Shown one piece after another: positions 7,339-56,579 of a stretch of 64,000 nt of DNA. The notes below the pieces were generated by a model. That model worked only from the letters and a program-made list of their open reading frames with translations, had not been told where the DNA came from and made no database searches. Positions within the stretch are counted from its first letter, which is position 1. The number at the start of each line of letters is the position of its first letter. The stretch is taken from assembly GCA_024711345.1 (NCBI GenBank), contig JANJTA010000007.1, positions 62,001-126,000 on the forward strand, given 5' to 3'. Origin of the DNA: Rhodanobacter sp. (GTDB taxonomy: Bacteria > Pseudomonadota > Gammaproteobacteria > Xanthomonadales > Rhodanobacteraceae). The translations under genes and the position numbers were made by a program.

Positions 7339-9711
<2,373 letters not shown>

Positions 9712-9732
9712 GCCGGCGCCACCCAGGCCGAC

Positions 9733-9759
9733 AAAAGCCCCGGCCAGTCCGGGGCTTTT
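9733..9759 (+). terminator. Rho-independent terminator after TonB receptor
   Basis: An 11-bp perfect stem (AAAAGCCCCGG paired with CCGGGGCTTTT) with a five-base loop, starting 22 bases after the receptor stop. The flanking A and T runs let it work in either direction. Confidence 0.88.
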
Positions 9760-10119
9760 CATGACGGGAACCGGCGCAGCCCGGGTCATCCCGCCGCCGT
9801 CCGCTGACGGCTTTCCCTGACAGCTTCTGCCGCCTGCGCCGACAGCCGGGGGCGTGGCACCCCCGGATAATCCCGACGCCATGCCACCTGGCGACGCCGT
9901 CCGGTCCGCCACTTGACAACGCCAATCCGGCATGGACAGCATCCCCCCGCGTTCGCGCGACGGCATTCTCGCCTTCGCCGCCCGCGCAACACGGTGGCCA
10001 TACGGACACCTGGGGGATCCAGCGTAGACACGACTTGCCACGGCGCGCGCGCGCCAGCGGCGAGTGCGGATCGGCCACCGATAGGGGACTGCATTGCGTC
10101 ATCAACTGGAGGGGAATTC
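9760..10119. other. 360-bp intergenic region, no gene seen
   Basis: Lies between the receptor terminator and the CsgG-like gene. It holds a small GC hairpin (CCGGGGG at 9846-9852 pairing with CCCCCGG at 9860-9866, seven-base loop) with no T-run. I can support no coding sequence or clear promoter; the upstream signals of the CsgG-like gene must lie here. Confidence 0.5.
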
Positions 10120-10851
10120 ATGAGACCCGTGAACCGTACAAGCATGCTGGGCGCGGCCTTGGCCCTGGCATTGACTGCGAGCGGCGCCGTCATGGCCCGC
10201 GAGGCGCCGACCATGACCGTGGCCGTGATCGACTTCACCAACGACACCAGCTCCGCCAGCTGGTGGAACGGCGACGTCGGCCGGCAGCTCGCCGACGTAC
10301 TCAGCAACGAGTTGAGCGCCACCGGCGATTTCAAGGTGATCGAGCGGCAGAAGATCGACGCCGTGCTGGCGGAACAGGACCTGGCCGCCTCCTCGCGCAT
10401 GCGCCCGGGCAGCAGCCCGCACAGTGGCAACATCACCGGCGCGCAGTACCTGGTCACCGGCAGCGTCGCGGCGTACACCGAGGACACCTCCAACACCGGC
10501 GGCGGCCTCAATATCGCCGGCTTCCGGGTGGGCGGCGGCAAGTCGGAGGCGTATGTCGCGATCGACCTGCGGGTAATCGACGCGGAGACCTCCGAAGTGG
10601 TGTATGCGCGCACCGTCGAAGGCCGCAGCTCCGGCGGCGGCGTCAACCTGCGCGGCTATGTCAGCGGGGTCGGCGGCGACTTCGCCCACGCCAAGAAGAC
10701 TCCGGCCAGCAAGGCGGTGCGCGCGGCGCTGATCGAGGCCACCGACTACCTCGACTGCACCATGGTCAAGCGCGACGGCTGCGAAGCCCGCTACCAGCAG
10801 AAGGAACAGCGCCGCCGCGAGAACACCAAGAAGACGCTCGACCTCGACTGA
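10120..10851 (+). CDS. CsgG/HfaB-like exported protein
   Basis: A 243-residue exported protein of the CsgG/HfaB superfamily, the fold of the curli secretion pore and related lipoproteins. A signal peptide ends near SGAVMA-RE. The body carries the family pattern: TMTVAVIDFTNDT, ADVLSNELSATGDFKVIERQKIDAVLAEQDL, AQYLVTGSVAAYTEDT and IDLRVIDAETSEVVYARTVEG. No lipobox cysteine is visible, so it may be soluble in the periplasm, unlike CsgG itself. GGAGGGG lies six bases before the ATG; longer in-frame readings lack this and the signal peptide. No curli genes are nearby. Fold assignment is good; function is open. Confidence 0.85.
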   Translation: MRPVNRTSMLGAALALALTASGAVMAREAPTMTVAVIDFTNDTSSASWWNGDVGRQLADVLSNELSATGDFKVIERQKIDAVLAEQDLAASSRMRPGSSPHSGNITGAQYLVTGSVAAYTEDTSNTGGGLNIAGFRVGGGKSEAYVAIDLRVIDAETSEVVYARTVEGRSSGGGVNLRGYVSGVGGDFAHAKKTPASKAVRAALIEATDYLDCTMVKRDGCEARYQQKEQRRRENTKKTLDLD

Positions 10852-50921: not shown

Positions 50922-53900
50922 CTACGCCATGGCTCGCTCGATTCGGGCAAGGACTGCATTCCGATCAGCCAGCCATTCGATACCGTCGACGTGCACTACC
51001 TGCCAGCCGCGCCGACGCAACAAGGAAGCTCGCTGGGTCCGGCGATACGCACCATCGTCGGCGTCGCCCTCATCACAAAGAACCGCCACGCGATACGCCC
51101 GCCCGGCGGCTTCACCTTCAACTGCCACATCCACCTTGAAGCGCGAGGCGCCCACATGCGCGCTGGCCTGGATACCTTTCTCGACCAACACCTCGACGAG
51201 TTGGCCGGCAAGTGGTACGAAGCCAGGCAAGACCTCTTGCACGCTGCTGGCGGAAGGGCCAGCTGCGGCACGCACCACGTCCAGCACTCGCGAGGCAAGC
51301 GAGCGATTGCCACCGGACATATGGTGGACATATTCCAGATACGCCTTGAACAGGCGAGGACCGTCATTCTTCGCACGCGCCACACTCAATTGAGCGGGGT
51401 CGAACGAGGCAACCACGATGGCTTCCTGCCGTGCGCGCGAGACGGCCACGTTCAGGCGGCGCTCGCCACCGCGCTGGCCCAGCGGGCCGAACCGCGCCGG
51501 CACGTAACGCTGCACACCGCGCGTCTTGTGAACGCGCTCTACCGGTGCATGGCCCAGCGAGAAAACAATCACGTCGCGTTCGTCGCCTTGCACGCTTTCG
51601 ATGTTCTTGACGAAGGGGCGGTCGTCGAGACGCTCTAGCGCTTCGGCAGCTCCGTACAGGTGGGCAAAATCCACTTGCGATGAACGTCGCCGGTCAATGG
51701 CATCAAGTATGGCCAGCCGCTGCGACAGGTTGAAAGTCACAATGCCGATCGTCGGTGGATGCGACCGGGCCAGCAGTTCCCCGACGAGATCCACCACGCG
51801 CTCCGCTTCAACTTCATTGCGTCCACCCTCGTATTTTGCATCGGCTACAGCAATCCAACGCAGGCTGGCCGGTACCGGTGGTCGGGACGAAGCGGGACAG
51901 GTGAGTAGCGTGCCTTCGTACATCGCGTGGTTGGAGAACGCAATCAGATCCTCGTCTTGGCAGCGATAATGCCAGTCGAGCCTGCGCGCAGGCATGCGCA
52001 AACGGGCAAGTGTCAGCAGCGATTCCGAGCTGAGAAAATCGGCGGGCTCCGCTTCTTCCTCGGTATCCGTTTCGCCCTCGTCGCGCGCGGCCTTGAAAAA
52101 GGCGGTGGGCGGCATCTGCCGGTCGTCACCCGCGATGACCACTCGCCGCGCACGCAGCAGCGCGGGGAAGCCATTGGCAACGGTACACTGCGACGCCTCG
52201 TCAAAAATCACCACATCGAACACTTGCTGGCGCGGAAACAACACGACCAGCGTTTCCGGCGACAGTAGCCACACCGGCAACGCGTCGAACAAGCCTTGCC
52301 CGGCATAGCTGTGCACGAAACTGCGTAGCGGCATCAAGCCGCGCTGCTTGGCCACTTCATGCTGCAGTTTGTCGCGGGTGGCCTGCGCGGGCGTGCGCCG
52401 CGCATACTTTTCAGCTGCGGGCATGGCAAGCAGGGGTACCGCGTCAGCGCCATTGAGCACGCGGTGACGAGATGCCAGTGCCTGAGCTTCCAGTGCTTCA
52501 TTCAGCTGACGAGTGGCACTGTCGTCCACCTCACCGCTGCGCAGGGCACCCGGTAACGCGTCGTGCCCCGCCTGTACACGACCCATTGCCCACGCCTTCA
52601 GCAGAATGGACGACCATGCGCCAGAAGGCGCGTCGGCACACGCGGCAACCGCGAGGGGACCACATGCATCCACGGTCAAAGCTTCGGCGAGGTGTCGATC
52701 GAGTTCAGCGGCACGGTCAGCATGCTGCGCGAAGATGCGATACCGGACATCAAGTTCCGTAGCGGTGGTGCTCGGAGTCAGGTCATGAAAAATCTCGGCA
52801 GCAGCGCGATTGGCCGCGACATGTTTGCGCCACGCCTGCGCAGCGGCCAGACGGTCGAATACCGTTTGCCGCCACGCCTTTGCATCGCCGTTGATCCACG
52901 CATCCAGCGCTGTCAACGCATTCCGGACGCGAGCCAGACAATGTAGTGGTTCGGCAATGCCGGCTACGCGCTGCAAGGACCGAGCAACCTGTCCGGCGTC
53001 GCCGACGAGCACCCGCTCAAGTCCGGTCCGGACAGCGATCTGGTCGAAACTTGCCCACAACCGCGCCAGTCGCAGCCGCCGATGCAGGTCACGCAATAAG
53101 GCGTCGTCGATCGGTCGGCCCAAGGCATCCGGCCAGACATCCGCCAGCTGTCGCTTGATGGTGCCGCGCGCCTTCCACCAGCCTGGCGACAGGTAACGCA
53201 AGAACGAGGTGCCTTGGACCAAAAGCGCCTGTACGCACTGCTCGAACGCCGGCGTGGTATCGACACGTACCGGTGCGGGATGGGCCTGCCACGCTTCCGA
53301 CGCGCTCATCCAGTCCGCCCGCAAGGCAAGCAAAGGCGTACAGCGATCGTCAGGACGTTCCAGCAGAGCTGCCGCCAGGGCATCAACATCCTTGATGGAG
53401 GTGATCGCCTTGTGCGCTATCAACAGTTCCTCCATGTGCGACTCGCTGGCAGCAGGCGCGACACCTTGGCGCGCTGCTGCCGCTTCGACAGCAGCAGCGG
53501 CGCGCACTGCCTGCATGAGCGATTCGGCGAGGCTTGCGCGTGCTTCGCGCGTACTCCCGGCCAGCGAGCGTCGCTGGTGTGTCGCTGAAGGGCGCCACGG
53601 ACTGCCCGGCACCATCAAGTCAGCCCAGGGCCGGCAAACCTGCGCCAGCTTCGCCAGTTTGAGCGCGCTACCGAGCGAAAGACCTGCCAGTGGCGGCATG
53701 GCCTGGGGCACGGCAGCAGCAATGCCTGCGGCATAGGTGGCCAGCTTGCCCAGCGGCGGTTCACCCGCAGTCGAACGGCGCATATGCGCGATGCGCGGGC
53801 GCAGCCTTCCAGCGAACTGCGCGACGTCCTCCGCGGTAGACGCAAGCGCGGCATGGCCGCCGGTTCTGGACTCCAGGCGGTCGCGAATCTTGCGGAACAG

Positions 53901-56579
53901 CGTCTTGCGGTCATCGGCCACGTCGTGCACCACGCCCACGAGAGCATCGAACCCGACCCCCGCCAGGCGCTGGGCAACCACGTCCAGCGCCGCACGCTTC
54001 TCGGATACCACCGCCACGCGCTCGCCGCGCGCGAGCGCATCCGCCACCAGGTTCACGATCACCTGGCTCTTGCCCGTACCTGGCGGACCATCGACGACCA
54101 TGGCGCGCGTAATGCCTGCCATGCGCACCACATCCACCTGCGAAGGGTCGGCAGCGATCACCACAGTCGGCGACTGGGCGGTTGACTCGGGTGCACCCAA
54201 CTCAGACGCATGGCCCGTACTCAGGGATGCCGGCAAAAGTGCATTGGCGCAACCCAGCAGCGCATGCACGTCCGCGCCAGGCAATTCCAATTCGGCGAGC
54301 AACTGCTCATAGTCGTGCAGCAGTTCGGAGCGTGACTGCGGAAACAGGCCAACGACGGCACAGGCTTCGAGTTCAAGTCGACAGCCCTTCCAGGCAACCA
54401 TGTCGTCATCGAGCGGGTCGAGCGTATGCAGTGCAGCATCGATCTCGAAAATGTCCATGCCGATCTGGCGCAGATGATTCGTCAGTGCCGCTATGCCCTG
54501 ACTGGCATCGGCCGCAAGTGCGTCGAGCTTGATTGCCTGATCGTCTGCAAAAGGCCGGTTCGCCTTGAGATGGATGAGCCGAAACAGTGCCTGGTTGGCG
54601 ATCGGTGGCTCATCTGCCATATGCACCAACGCCATGCCGCCGATGCCGTCCGGCTCCAGCTCCACTGGATGCAACAGTAGAGGTGCACGCACCACATAGC
54701 CGTTCACCACACCGCGCACGAAACCGACGCCGAGATGCAGGTCGCGTGCGCCGGTCTCCTCACGCCGCGCCAAGTGCTCGCGCCGCAGCTCGACAAGCTG
54801 GCGTAGAAGGCTGGCGGCCTCCTTCGACTCGCCAGCCTGTTCCGCCTGCACCAGCACCACGCGACGAGCGTCCTGCGCCAGCGTCAGGCAGCGATCGGCA
54901 TGCCCGACCGAGATACGCGACAGGGCGGCGAGGTCGAACGCGCGACCGACGCGTACTTCACGGAGCCGCACCGATGGACTGCGCCCGTCACCGCTGATGA
55001 GCTCGTCACGCAGGCGCTGGATGGCGCGCAGCAACGCATCCCGCTGCAAAGGCGGCGGCGGCGTCACGGTTGCCGTTGCGTGCCTGGGCGACAACGCAAT
55101 GATTCCATCCAGGTCGACCGTGGCGAAATCGGCCGACGTGGAAAGGTCAGCACGTTCCAGCGCCGCCGCAAGCCGCGCGAGCACAGCACCCTCACGGCGT
55201 GTTTCGCCCACCAGGCGCAGCAGCTGGCGCAAGGTAGTCTGCGACCCACCACGTCGCCAGATGGCGGCGAGATAAACATCCAGCGCCTGCGCAGCATCAC
55301 GCGCACGCACCGGCAGCGGCTTGGCGGCGCTCTCCTCACGACGTTCCACCGTGATCCGACGAAGCACCGTGCGCGTCAACGTACCGAACAGCTCCTCACC
55401 GCCAAGCAAGCGACCTATTTCCATGACACGCGCGAACTCGCGTTCGTCCGCCACGCCGTCGGCCGTGAGCACGTGGATCAACAGGTTGAAAAGTGGGCGC
55501 AGGAACGATGAACCCCAAACCTTGGCCAGCGGCGCCAGCTCCTCGACGCGTTGTGCCGCTTGTGCCGGATCGAGCAGGCGGCGCCAGTCGGGCACCAACG
55601 AGGCAAAGGTGCGCTCCAGCACCTCAGCCTCTTCATCGCTGAGGTTGTCATCGGCCATCGACACCAGCACGGCAGCTGCCAGCGCCAGTTCATGCAGCTC
55701 TGCGGGCGGCGGCTCCAGGTACTGGAACGCGCCGTCGAGCCCGGGCTGGTGCAATACGCGCTCTATCAGGGCATCCACCTCGTCGAGCGTGCGCGTACCG
55801 GGGCCGCAACCGGTCAACTCGCGATACAGCGCGGTTTCGCTGAACAACCACGCGGCCCAGGCGCGCACGCCGTGTTCGGGGTGAGTGACGCCCTGTGCAC
55901 TGTCACCATCCATGAGGCATGCCTCCACCAGCTCGCGACACTGGGCGAGATAGCCGGCCGTATCGCCGCCGAGATCTTCCGCGGGCAAGCCGGTGGTCGC
56001 CACCATTTCCAGGCGCAACAGCGCATCGAGATCCCGCGTTGCGAGCAGGGCGTAGCGGTCGGCAGTCAGCTCACGCGCCATCGAAAGAGTGGAGGCAACC
56101 AGCGCAAGCTCTGCCGGCGCATCTTCCGCCAGCGCCAGTGACGTAGCCAGCGCACTCACCTGCGCATGCGGTGAATCCGGTCCGTGCGCGATGAAATGGC
56201 CAAACTCGTGACCGATCACCGCACGCAAGGCACCGTCGTCGAGCAGGGACAAAAGCCGCCCCTGGATCTCCATCAGGATCGGCTCGCGCAAGAGGTGCAT
56301 CGCCGCGTTCTCACGGCCAGCAGACTGGTAGATCTCGACAGGCAAGGTCAGCCCGAACGCGTCCCGGACCTCGATTGCTGCCGCGATGGCTTTGGGTGCC
56401 ATTGCTTCGGTGAGTCGCACGGCCCTCCCCAGCAACTGACGGCGCACCGCGTCGGGCTCGGGTAACGCGTATTGCGCTGCCGTCAGGGCCACTCCTGCAT
56501 CCAGCGCGAGGCGCTCGAGCAGCGCATGCTCGACGCGCACCCGTACACGCGCCTCTTCGGCAATCCGTCCTGGCTCCAT
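50922..56579 (-). CDS. M48 peptidase-TerB-SF1 helicase-nuclease fusion (candidate defence protein)
   Basis: A 1,885-residue multidomain protein. Residues about 65-195: M48-type metallopeptidase with AVIGHEFGHFIAH (His124, Glu125, His128) and third ligand Glu170 in MARELTADRYA. About 295-395: paired TerB-like motifs (MADDNLSDEEAEVLERTF; LTADGVADEREFARVMEIG). About 595-720: a DUF4011-like lead-in (VVRAPLLLHPVELE, then PIANQALFRLI). From 815: SF1 helicase with Walker A GPPGTGKS (831-838), DEAS (about 1459), GDDRQMPP, DWHYRCQDEDL, VQGDERDVIVFSLG and LNVAVSRARQE (about 1709). The C-terminal 110 residues match a Vsr/MTES_1575-type nuclease (FKVDVAV, VLCDEGD, SLLRRRGWQVVHVDGIEW). ATG 56579 has AGGGGG seven bases upstream. 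Base composition is lower than in neighbours. No partner genes are adjacent. Function is inferred, perhaps phage or plasmid defence. Confidence 0.85.
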   Translation of the reverse strand: MEPGRIAEEARVRVRVEHALLERLALDAGVALTAAQYALPEPDAVRRQLLGRAVRLTEAMAPKAIAAAIEVRDAFGLTLPVEIYQSAGRENAAMHLLREPILMEIQGRLLSLLDDGALRAVIGHEFGHFIAHGPDSPHAQVSALATSLALAEDAPAELALVASTLSMARELTADRYALLATRDLDALLRLEMVATTGLPAEDLGGDTAGYLAQCRELVEACLMDGDSAQGVTHPEHGVRAWAAWLFSETALYRELTGCGPGTRTLDEVDALIERVLHQPGLDGAFQYLEPPPAELHELALAAAVLVSMADDNLSDEEAEVLERTFASLVPDWRRLLDPAQAAQRVEELAPLAKVWGSSFLRPLFNLLIHVLTADGVADEREFARVMEIGRLLGGEELFGTLTRTVLRRITVERREESAAKPLPVRARDAAQALDVYLAAIWRRGGSQTTLRQLLRLVGETRREGAVLARLAAALERADLSTSADFATVDLDGIIALSPRHATATVTPPPPLQRDALLRAIQRLRDELISGDGRSPSVRLREVRVGRAFDLAALSRISVGHADRCLTLAQDARRVVLVQAEQAGESKEAASLLRQLVELRREHLARREETGARDLHLGVGFVRGVVNGYVVRAPLLLHPVELEPDGIGGMALVHMADEPPIANQALFRLIHLKANRPFADDQAIKLDALAADASQGIAALTNHLRQIGMDIFEIDAALHTLDPLDDDMVAWKGCRLELEACAVVGLFPQSRSELLHDYEQLLAELELPGADVHALLGCANALLPASLSTGHASELGAPESTAQSPTVVIAADPSQVDVVRMAGITRAMVVDGPPGTGKSQVIVNLVADALARGERVAVVSEKRAALDVVAQRLAGVGFDALVGVVHDVADDRKTLFRKIRDRLESRTGGHAALASTAEDVAQFAGRLRPRIAHMRRSTAGEPPLGKLATYAAGIAAAVPQAMPPLAGLSLGSALKLAKLAQVCRPWADLMVPGSPWRPSATHQRRSLAGSTREARASLAESLMQAVRAAAAVEAAAARQGVAPAASESHMEELLIAHKAITSIKDVDALAAALLERPDDRCTPLLALRADWMSASEAWQAHPAPVRVDTTPAFEQCVQALLVQGTSFLRYLSPGWWKARGTIKRQLADVWPDALGRPIDDALLRDLHRRLRLARLWASFDQIAVRTGLERVLVGDAGQVARSLQRVAGIAEPLHCLARVRNALTALDAWINGDAKAWRQTVFDRLAAAQAWRKHVAANRAAAEIFHDLTPSTTATELDVRYRIFAQHADRAAELDRHLAEALTVDACGPLAVAACADAPSGAWSSILLKAWAMGRVQAGHDALPGALRSGEVDDSATRQLNEALEAQALASRHRVLNGADAVPLLAMPAAEKYARRTPAQATRDKLQHEVAKQRGLMPLRSFVHSYAGQGLFDALPVWLLSPETLVVLFPRQQVFDVVIFDEASQCTVANGFPALLRARRVVIAGDDRQMPPTAFFKAARDEGETDTEEEAEPADFLSSESLLTLARLRMPARRLDWHYRCQDEDLIAFSNHAMYEGTLLTCPASSRPPVPASLRWIAVADAKYEGGRNEVEAERVVDLVGELLARSHPPTIGIVTFNLSQRLAILDAIDRRRSSQVDFAHLYGAAEALERLDDRPFVKNIESVQGDERDVIVFSLGHAPVERVHKTRGVQRYVPARFGPLGQRGGERRLNVAVSRARQEAIVVASFDPAQLSVARAKNDGPRLFKAYLEYVHHMSGGNRSLASRVLDVVRAAAGPSASSVQEVLPGFVPLAGQLVEVLVEKGIQASAHVGASRFKVDVAVEGEAAGRAYRVAVLCDEGDADDGAYRRTQRASLLRRRGWQVVHVDGIEWLADRNAVLARIERAMA

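Follow-up and report, generated by a model that had tools for sequence, protein, structure and literature searches.

The window analyzed here is a 64,000-nucleotide stretch of a Rhodanobacter sp. genome (GCA_024711345.1, contig JANJTA010000007.1, positions 62,001 to 126,000), and our subject is one minus-strand gene within it, encoding a 1,885-residue protein in which an M48 zinc peptidase is fused to a DUF4011-superfamily 1 (SF1) helicase-MTES_1575 chain. The nuclease signature of the MTES_1575 domain was missing in every protein that we found with the peptidase attached, and we regard this as the most interesting point of the analysis. We tentatively favor, at close to even chances, the reading that the protein, a member of the DUF4011-SF1 helicase-MTES_1575 superfamily, is a helicase-based anti-phage sensor in which a protease has taken the place of the nuclease effector. 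With slightly less assurance, we suggest that the superfamily may be a platform with an exchangeable executioner, such that when an M48 peptidase is attached, either by fusion or as an upstream gene, the nuclease decays and the sensing helicase fires the protease.

In canonical relatives the MTES_1575 active site reads ECDGATYH and then ARDRD, sometimes with small changes, and the corresponding part of the window protein reads LCDEGDADDGAYRRTQR. A signature derived from the canonical relatives, E.DG..[YFW]H with a downstream RDRD, was absent from the window protein, though its MTES_1575 domain scored above the Pfam cutoff (47.9 versus 38.2 bits, residues 1794 to 1883). Among 41 aligned rows, E.DG..[YFW]H was present in 26 (a count that includes two repeat reads, L004/L081 and L003/L080) and missing in 15, namely, all five fused proteins, all four operonic proteins, in which the peptidase is a separate upstream gene, and six others. 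The tenth peptidase-linked protein, the G1317 copy, also lacked it; this copy was included in the motif alignment and left out of both trees, the pair comparison, and the profile test described below. A profile of the canonical nuclease gave 43 to 64 bits in the nine linked rows versus 145 to 168 bits in 24 canonical rows under leave-one-out scoring, where the 24 include the same repeat reads and near-copies, L014 and L100 were omitted, and training rows >90% identical to the left-out row were removed. In all 16 pairs of linked proteins (10 fused and 6 operonic), moreover, the helicase was better conserved than the nuclease, and the order was reversed in 92% of 153 pairs drawn from 18 canonical proteins, a set formed without L084, L008, L092, L014, L100, L095, L099, and L010 and without the repeats or near-copies L004, L003, L090, L086, L011, and L012.

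A gap in score was also seen in a sample of 200 genomes, which held 25 MTES_1575 matches at 117 to 134 bits (two in frames of <1,500 residues) and two at 88 to 90 bits; the only frames of >1,500 residues that fell below 88 bits were those of G014 (64 bits), the window (54 bits), and G665 (38 bits). The signature was kept in 19 of the 20 readable nuclease domains from 26 loci of that sample (L141 to L166). No added enzymatic domain was seen in ten platform N termini scanned (nine with an intact signature, plus L095), and M48 queries found no match in 20 loci of helicase-nuclease relatives without M48. Judging from sequence, the linked proteins have probably lost nuclease activity.

The link between peptidase and helicase recurs. 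We found full fusions in six genomes: that of the window, Fulvimonas soli (G007), G341, G460, G665, and G1317. Identity to the window protein was 91.0% for the G1317 copy, 72% for the Fulvimonas copy, and 65% for the G341 copy, with those of G460 and G665 more distant. Searches with the N-terminal 790 residues in 151, 274, and 398 genomes, some drawn repeatedly, matched free M48 genes as well, and the neighborhoods of 16 such loci were read, some on short contigs, a count that leaves out other standalone matches such as G916, G1013, G908, G1022, G872, G1050, and G1234. At four of the 16 (L043, L066, L078, and L079), the M48 gene was followed directly, in the same orientation, by a gene for a giant DUF4011-helicase-MTES_1575 relative; the remaining 12 had no helicase neighbor in the stretch read. 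If the most upstream start codon that fits is taken for each gene, the pairs overlap by 4 bp at L043, 4 bp at L079, and 13 bp at L078, and at L066 the two open reading frames (ORFs) overlap and the helicase frame is broken in two. A profile of the operonic peptidases, run over two orders (244 and 250 genomes), gave no new full-length copy among the matches listed beyond those of G784 and G853, which were already part of the profile; most listed matches scored about 20 bits over about 40 residues around HExxH, and these we read as other M48 proteins and did not count. In a midpoint-rooted helicase tree of 36 rows (L100, L090, L086, L012, and L011 left out), the fused proteins formed one clade and the operonic proteins another, and the fused clade grouped with L084, L008, and L092 and not with the operonic clade (97/95 support). 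An M48 tree of 21 rows likewise separated fused, operonic, and lone forms into three well-supported groups. The helicase tree is compatible with two independent pairings and also with a single ancient pairing followed by losses.

A helicase that travels with a zinc protease could also be a machine for clearing roadblocks, which we consider unlikely. The peptidase would then ride on a translocating helicase and digest DNA-bound or cross-linked proteins, for instance terminal or end-binding proteins of phages, and thereby open the DNA to host nucleases; it would serve the helicase rather than kill, and cellular nucleases would stand in for the worn one. Proteases of the SPRTN/Wss1 type act in DNA-protein cross-link repair, and the fusion of a helicase to a zinc protease fits such a role. 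Both operonic helicases scanned (L043 and L078) carried DUF4011, MTES_1575, and WGR domains by Pfam and end in the WGR domain, which is a DNA-break-binding module. The peptidase match is nonetheless to M48 and not to SprT, for which only subthreshold traces of 12.1 and 12.7 bits appeared, in L078 only, and no known DNA-protein cross-link partner was seen among the neighbors scanned.

The window gene is an intact frame, with an ATG at position 56579, a stop codon at 50922 to 50924, and no internal stops, and the copies in Fulvimonas and G1317 begin at the same start. Pfam placed Peptidase_M48 (23.7 bits versus a cutoff of 20.3, residues 108 to 239), DUF4011 (38.1 bits), AAA_11 (61.2 bits), AAA_12 (60.8 bits), and MTES_1575 along the chain, each above its curated cutoff, so that DUF4011, a split SF1 helicase, and MTES_1575 follow in the order that marks the superfamily. 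No clear membrane segment was found in the protein (top 19-residue mean hydropathy, 1.59). M48 peptidases are recognized by an HExxH motif, a third ligand Glu within an ExxAD motif, and a His-Pro pair further on, and all three features are present in the window protein. Residues N91, A92, H124, E125, H128, E170, D174, R175, H233, and P234 were invariant in the 22 rows of the M48 alignment (6 fused, 4 operonic, and 12 lone). SF1 motifs I to VI were located at residues 831, 1457, 1484, 1536, 1664, and 1709, and a structure model of residues 1400 to 1885 (mean predicted local distance difference test [pLDDT], 80.7) matched Upf1, Dna2, and IGHMBP2 structures, with Upf1 as the top Foldseek match (E = 1.5e-12). 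An SGDGxSPSVRLR block in the DUF4011 lead-in was kept in five aligned fused rows, and the insertion between the helicase halves (residues 941 to 1399) was 56% identical to that of Fulvimonas, 51% to that of G341, and 28% and 23% to those of two distant fused copies.

The region between peptidase and helicase is less clearly assigned. TerB scored 16.9 bits in the window protein against a Pfam cutoff of 24.4, and it rose above the cutoff in both lone M48 relatives scanned (26.7 and 31.9 bits), where M48 itself scored about 71 bits, far above the value for the window protein. The lone M48 proteins are mostly about 400 residues long (one has 494), for example, those at 1354 to 2556 of L064 and 8533 to 9735 of L039. 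A model of residues 1 to 800, for which two sequences served as input, was poor (mean pLDDT, 39.3) and was not used, and the M48 and TerB folds therefore rest on sequence. An earlier sequence-only reading of the window, which gave no strand, had described an intact HEFGH zinc site with Glu170, TerB-like motifs, a DUF4011-like lead-in, a complete SF1 motif set, and a C-terminal Vsr/MTES_1575-like nuclease, and had supposed that an M48 peptidase at the front of such a protein is unusual and that the system may be one protein. The domain order, the zinc site, the helicase motifs, and the rarity all held up. The TerB likeness survives as weak, subcutoff similarity; the nuclease survives as homology, with the active-site signature absent from all ten linked members; and the single gene is a property of the window, whereas in four genomes the peptidase has a gene of its own, upstream of the helicase gene.

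The helicase half has named anti-phage relatives. Residues 800 to 1884 matched the PADLOC candidate PDC-S37 at 493 bits and NCBIfam ProA at 518 bits (NF058533; cutoff of 1500, best stretch at model positions 640 to 1703), and a match was also obtained to the DUF4011 anti-phage protein Hhe (NF042953; 304 bits versus a cutoff of 2000), which places this half in a superfamily with named anti-phage members. Identity with ProA or Hhe proper was rejected on these scores. The likeness to ProA and PDC-S37 lies in the helicase motifs and the C-terminal MTES_1575 region; the ProA match leaves the M48 part uncovered, and the window protein is without the nuclease signature. The best stretch of the Hhe match is the second helicase half plus the nuclease, and M48 again lies outside.

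Added modules are already known on this platform, as the founding MTES_1575 protein of Microbacterium testaceum combines transglutaminase, HEPN, SF1 helicase, a Vsr restriction endonuclease (REase), and two winged helix-turn-helix domains, and the passages of that paper that were read mention no M48 module (Anantharaman et al. 2013, PMC3710099). The window protein shares the SF1 helicase and Vsr-type domain of that protein; it adds M48 and a TerB-like domain in place of transglutaminase, HEPN, and winged helix-turn-helix modules, and it loses the REase signature. Shango likewise joins a TerB-like domain and a helicase within an anti-phage system, but as three genes encoding a TerB-like protein, an ATPase, and a DEAD/DEAH helicase, and the words "protease" and "peptidase" are absent from the main text of its report (PMC10250203). 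The RRDM island of enteropathogenic Escherichia coli is a functional anti-phage island containing an M48-family metallopeptidase, there a separate gene beside type I restriction-modification and DarTG (PMC12255303). No M48-TerB-helicase system appeared among the papers listed by literature searches outside subscription journals. A sibling architecture occurs in G014 (L101, 4961 to 12061), which has the same DUF4011-helicase-MTES_1575 order, a worn signature (ECDAPRHAL), and a catalytic N-terminal domain that is a protein kinase where the window protein has M48; possibly it represents one more kind of effector, the third, for this platform.

Strong known or candidate defense genes lay within about 1 kb at three of the ten linked loci. 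The Fulvimonas soli copy is embedded in a type I-G CRISPR-Cas locus and has cas8g on one side and cas4/1 on the other; the order is cas7g, cas5/6g, cas3g, cas8g, the fused gene, cas4/1, and cas2, and then comes an array of about 40 repeats with a spacing of about 73 bp. A 37-bp direct repeat with two identical copies is present there at 9899 to 9935 and 9972 to 10008 of L031 (spacing, 73 bp); the first copy falls just before the fused gene, and the second covers its start codon. In G665, GajA (616 bits) and GajB (456 bits, truncated where the stretch ends) come after the fused gene, and an ion-channel gene and a phage integrase come before it. A PDC-S65 gene (701 bits) precedes the G784 operon by about 1 kb. 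The G1317 copy, with its neighbors unscanned, was counted among the other seven loci, and since those seven show no strong defense neighbor, the context evidence is mixed. At L056, two small same-strand ORFs without a Pfam match (8117 to 8383 and 8380 to 8697) run into the fused gene. The defense role to which the sequence-only reading leaned finds backing in the PDC-S37, ProA, and Hhe homology and in the copies embedded in CRISPR-Cas and standing beside Gabija. Homologues mainly in housekeeping contexts, which would have counted against that reading, were not what we saw: the distribution is patchy and three of the ten linked loci adjoin strong known or candidate defense genes, but the other seven showed none. 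Its phrase "uncharacterized defense system" needs a qualifier, because the protein is neither ProA nor Hhe by score, but its helicase half shares a superfamily with anti-phage proteins that have names.

The window gene is real, conserved, and rare. Carriers numbered 2 of 45 genomes of the genus, and the full-length gene was found in 2 of 97 genomes of the family; a housekeeping gene was rejected on this patchy distribution. Compared with the 1,885-residue G1317 copy from the same genus, the nonsynonymous rate (dN) was 0.046 and the synonymous rate (dS) was 0.368 (ratio, 0.125), and the gene is under purifying selection. Segment ratios against G1317 were lowest in TerB (0.025), followed by the second helicase half (0.069), M48 (0.107), and the nuclease remnant (0.204); against Fulvimonas the lowest were the second helicase half (0.093) and M48 (0.099), with TerB at 0.107, and TerB was also not lowest against G341. 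Rarity alone would speak for a chance or recent nonfunctional fusion. We find that explanation hardly credible, because fused copies stand in five other genomes, and the purifying selection and the invariant catalytic residues also speak against it.

GC content at third codon positions was 0.71 in the window gene versus 0.83 to 0.97 in the nearest scored genes on both sides, and it falls to 0.66 to 0.77 in genes farther along the window and contig, so the low value is a hint of acquisition and no proof. The gene lies at the junction of two blocks that stand apart in relatives, and alignments to relatives break off exactly at, or a few bases from, the stop codons of the M1-type peptidase gene (50832) and the TonB receptor gene (56942) that flank it. 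In G1317 the fused gene stands beside the M1 block with only a 118-bp remnant that matches the TonB 3' end in the interval (L201); the same interval of the window contains no such piece. A clean empty site was not found among the relatives compared, and acquisition is therefore suggested by distribution and, weakly, by composition. On viral contigs, none of 3 candidate stretches was confirmed with the whole protein and none of 133 with the M48-TerB alignment; helicase-nuclease relatives occurred at 17 loci on 17 viral-type contigs, and 21 M48 queries (E = 0.01) gave no match there. An operonic M48 protein gave no tblastn match among 72,556 plasmid records, and residues 1 to 790 gave one plasmid match, at 511 to 767 only. 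Phages yielded one partial helicase-nuclease match.

A DNA- or protein-quality-control enzyme of the accessory genome, unrelated to defense, might show some of the same features. The flanking peptidase and receptor genes would suit it, as would the 12 of 16 standalone M48 loci without a helicase partner in the stretch read and the 7 of 10 linked loci without a strong defense neighbor in what was scanned. We nevertheless think it quite unlikely given the 2-in-45 distribution, the CRISPR-Cas and Gabija contexts, the anti-phage members of the superfamily, and the depressed third-position GC content, qualified as above by the equally low values farther away.

Several observations weigh against replacement of the nuclease by the peptidase. 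Six of the signature-less rows (L084, L008, L092, L095, L099, and L010) are without M48, and the canonical nuclease profile gave 38.8, 49.9, 52.8, 103.9, 92.1, and 132.2 bits on them, respectively. An added enzyme was seen in only one of these six, the kinase of L008, in a scan that left out L010 and most of L095. Five of the six (L084, L092, L095, L099, and L010) lost part or all of the signature with no recognized partner enzyme in what was scanned. In the fused lineage, decay of the nuclease may thus have preceded the arrival of the peptidase, as the fused clade shares its group in the helicase tree with L084, L008, and L092. At L092, an overlapping downstream gene of 449 residues (9485 to 10834) has no Pfam match and is a possible partner of the helicase with the worn nuclease; an integrase-like gene, named by eye, lies nearby. 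At most two independent events underlie the erosion pattern, and for this reason we claim no statistical proof. The conserved nuclease Asp, D1817, is kept in eight of nine linked rows, so an altered nuclease activity is possible.

Retention of D1817 would also suit a regulatory protease, in which the peptidase cuts a repressor or its own chain and the helicase with an altered, live nuclease is the effector. The metalloprotease CapP cleaves CapH in the cyclic-oligonucleotide-based antiphage signaling system (CBASS), and the two lone M48-TerB proteins scanned are weakly similar to CapP (15.5 and 22.1 bits). The poorly conserved segment between TerB and DUF4011 (residues 421 to 510) could be a cleavage site. 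We judge this explanation rather unlikely, because the nuclease is eroded and fast diverging in nine of nine rows, L077 has lost even the conserved Asp, and the immediate scanned neighbors of the window gene are not regulators.

Replacement of the nuclease by a protease also meets difficulties in the peptidase and in its surroundings. A profile of the fused peptidases gave 71 to 77 bits against the four operonic peptidases in the M48 part only, and beyond that part it gave 4.3 bits in one of the four; TerB was absent by Pfam from the L078 protein, the only operonic one scanned. Because the operonic peptidases hardly resemble the fused ones beyond M48, an M48-TerB unit is established only for lone proteins and, weakly, for fused ones, and TerB as the element that couples helicase to peptidase is a guess. 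The existence of twelve lone M48 relatives suggests that the module also lives outside the helicase link. The pattern of helicase motif III was unmatched in L077, and those of motifs I and VI were unmatched in the one L066 frame tested. No defense neighbor was seen among those scanned for the window copy, no strong one among those scanned for L056 and L057, and no defense match in three neighbor proteins of L066; L043 and L079 gave weak matches only (25.6 bits to PDC-M43B and 17 bits to ZorA, respectively).

The anti-phage sensor with a protease effector, which we continue to favor, suggests the following mechanism, in which we infer the defense function, sensing by the helicase, activation of the peptidase, and the existence of a protease target. 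A single chain would act against a phage or mobile element. To judge from the anti-phage superfamily, the Upf1-like helicase and its DUF4011 lead-in would engage a nucleic-acid intermediate typical of infection; the worn Vsr-type domain would perhaps bind DNA and, to go by its signature and faster divergence, would no longer cut it. Engagement and ATP hydrolysis would be relayed through the weakly TerB-like region, which in the fused form stands between helicase and peptidase, to the N-terminal M48 domain, and the activated peptidase would cleave a host or phage protein and halt infection. The invariant zinc-site residues and the recurrent linkage are consistent with the peptidase doing the chemistry and lend support to the idea, already raised from the letters of the window, of the peptidase as effector. 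The features of the gene are collected in Table 1.

Table 1. Position of the gene and its parts within the window
Feature	Window position	Strand	Evidence
Whole gene, 1,885 residues	50922..56579	-	Intact ORF; shared start; dN/dS 0.125 versus G1317
M48 zinc peptidase domain, residues 1-260	55800..56579	-	Pfam M48 above cutoff; catalytic residues invariant in 22/22 rows
HEFGH zinc-binding motif, residues 124-128	56196..56210	-	Sequence and alignment
Glu170 of ExxAD motif, third zinc ligand	56070..56072	-	Alignment
TerB-like helical domain, residues 285-420	55320..55727	-	Pfam 16.9 bits, below cutoff
Poorly conserved segment, residues 421-510	55050..55319	-	About 57% identity to Fulvimonas copy
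DUF4011-containing lead-in, residues 511-790 (Pfam core 578-666)	54210..55049	-	Pfam; conserved block
SF1 helicase, first RecA-like part, residues 800-940	53760..54182	-	Walker A GPPGTGKS, residues 831-838 (54066-54089)
Long divergent insertion between helicase halves, residues 941-1399	52383..53759	-	Identity to fused copies
SF1 helicase motifs II-VI, residues 1400-1765	51285..52382	-	Upf1/Dna2/IGHMBP2-like model
C-terminal MTES_1575 (Vsr-type) domain with eroded active site, residues 1785-1885	50925..51227	-	Pfam and alignment
Eroded active site LCDEGDADDGAYRRTQR, residues 1834-1850	51030-51080	-	Canonical relatives: ECDGATYH then ARDRD

Anti-phage proteins of the DUF4011-helicase-MTES_1575 type were known, and what is new here is the attached M48 peptidase and the loss of the nuclease signature that goes with it. 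If our reading is true, the sensing role of the helicase would be directly testable, because sensor and executioner would be different, separately mutable active sites. Further exchanged effectors would be predicted on the same platform, and a worn nuclease signature together with an added catalytic domain or coupled gene would serve as a rule for finding them. A large family of helicase-nuclease defense proteins would then not always act by cutting DNA, and its motor could be a sensor that triggers a protease.

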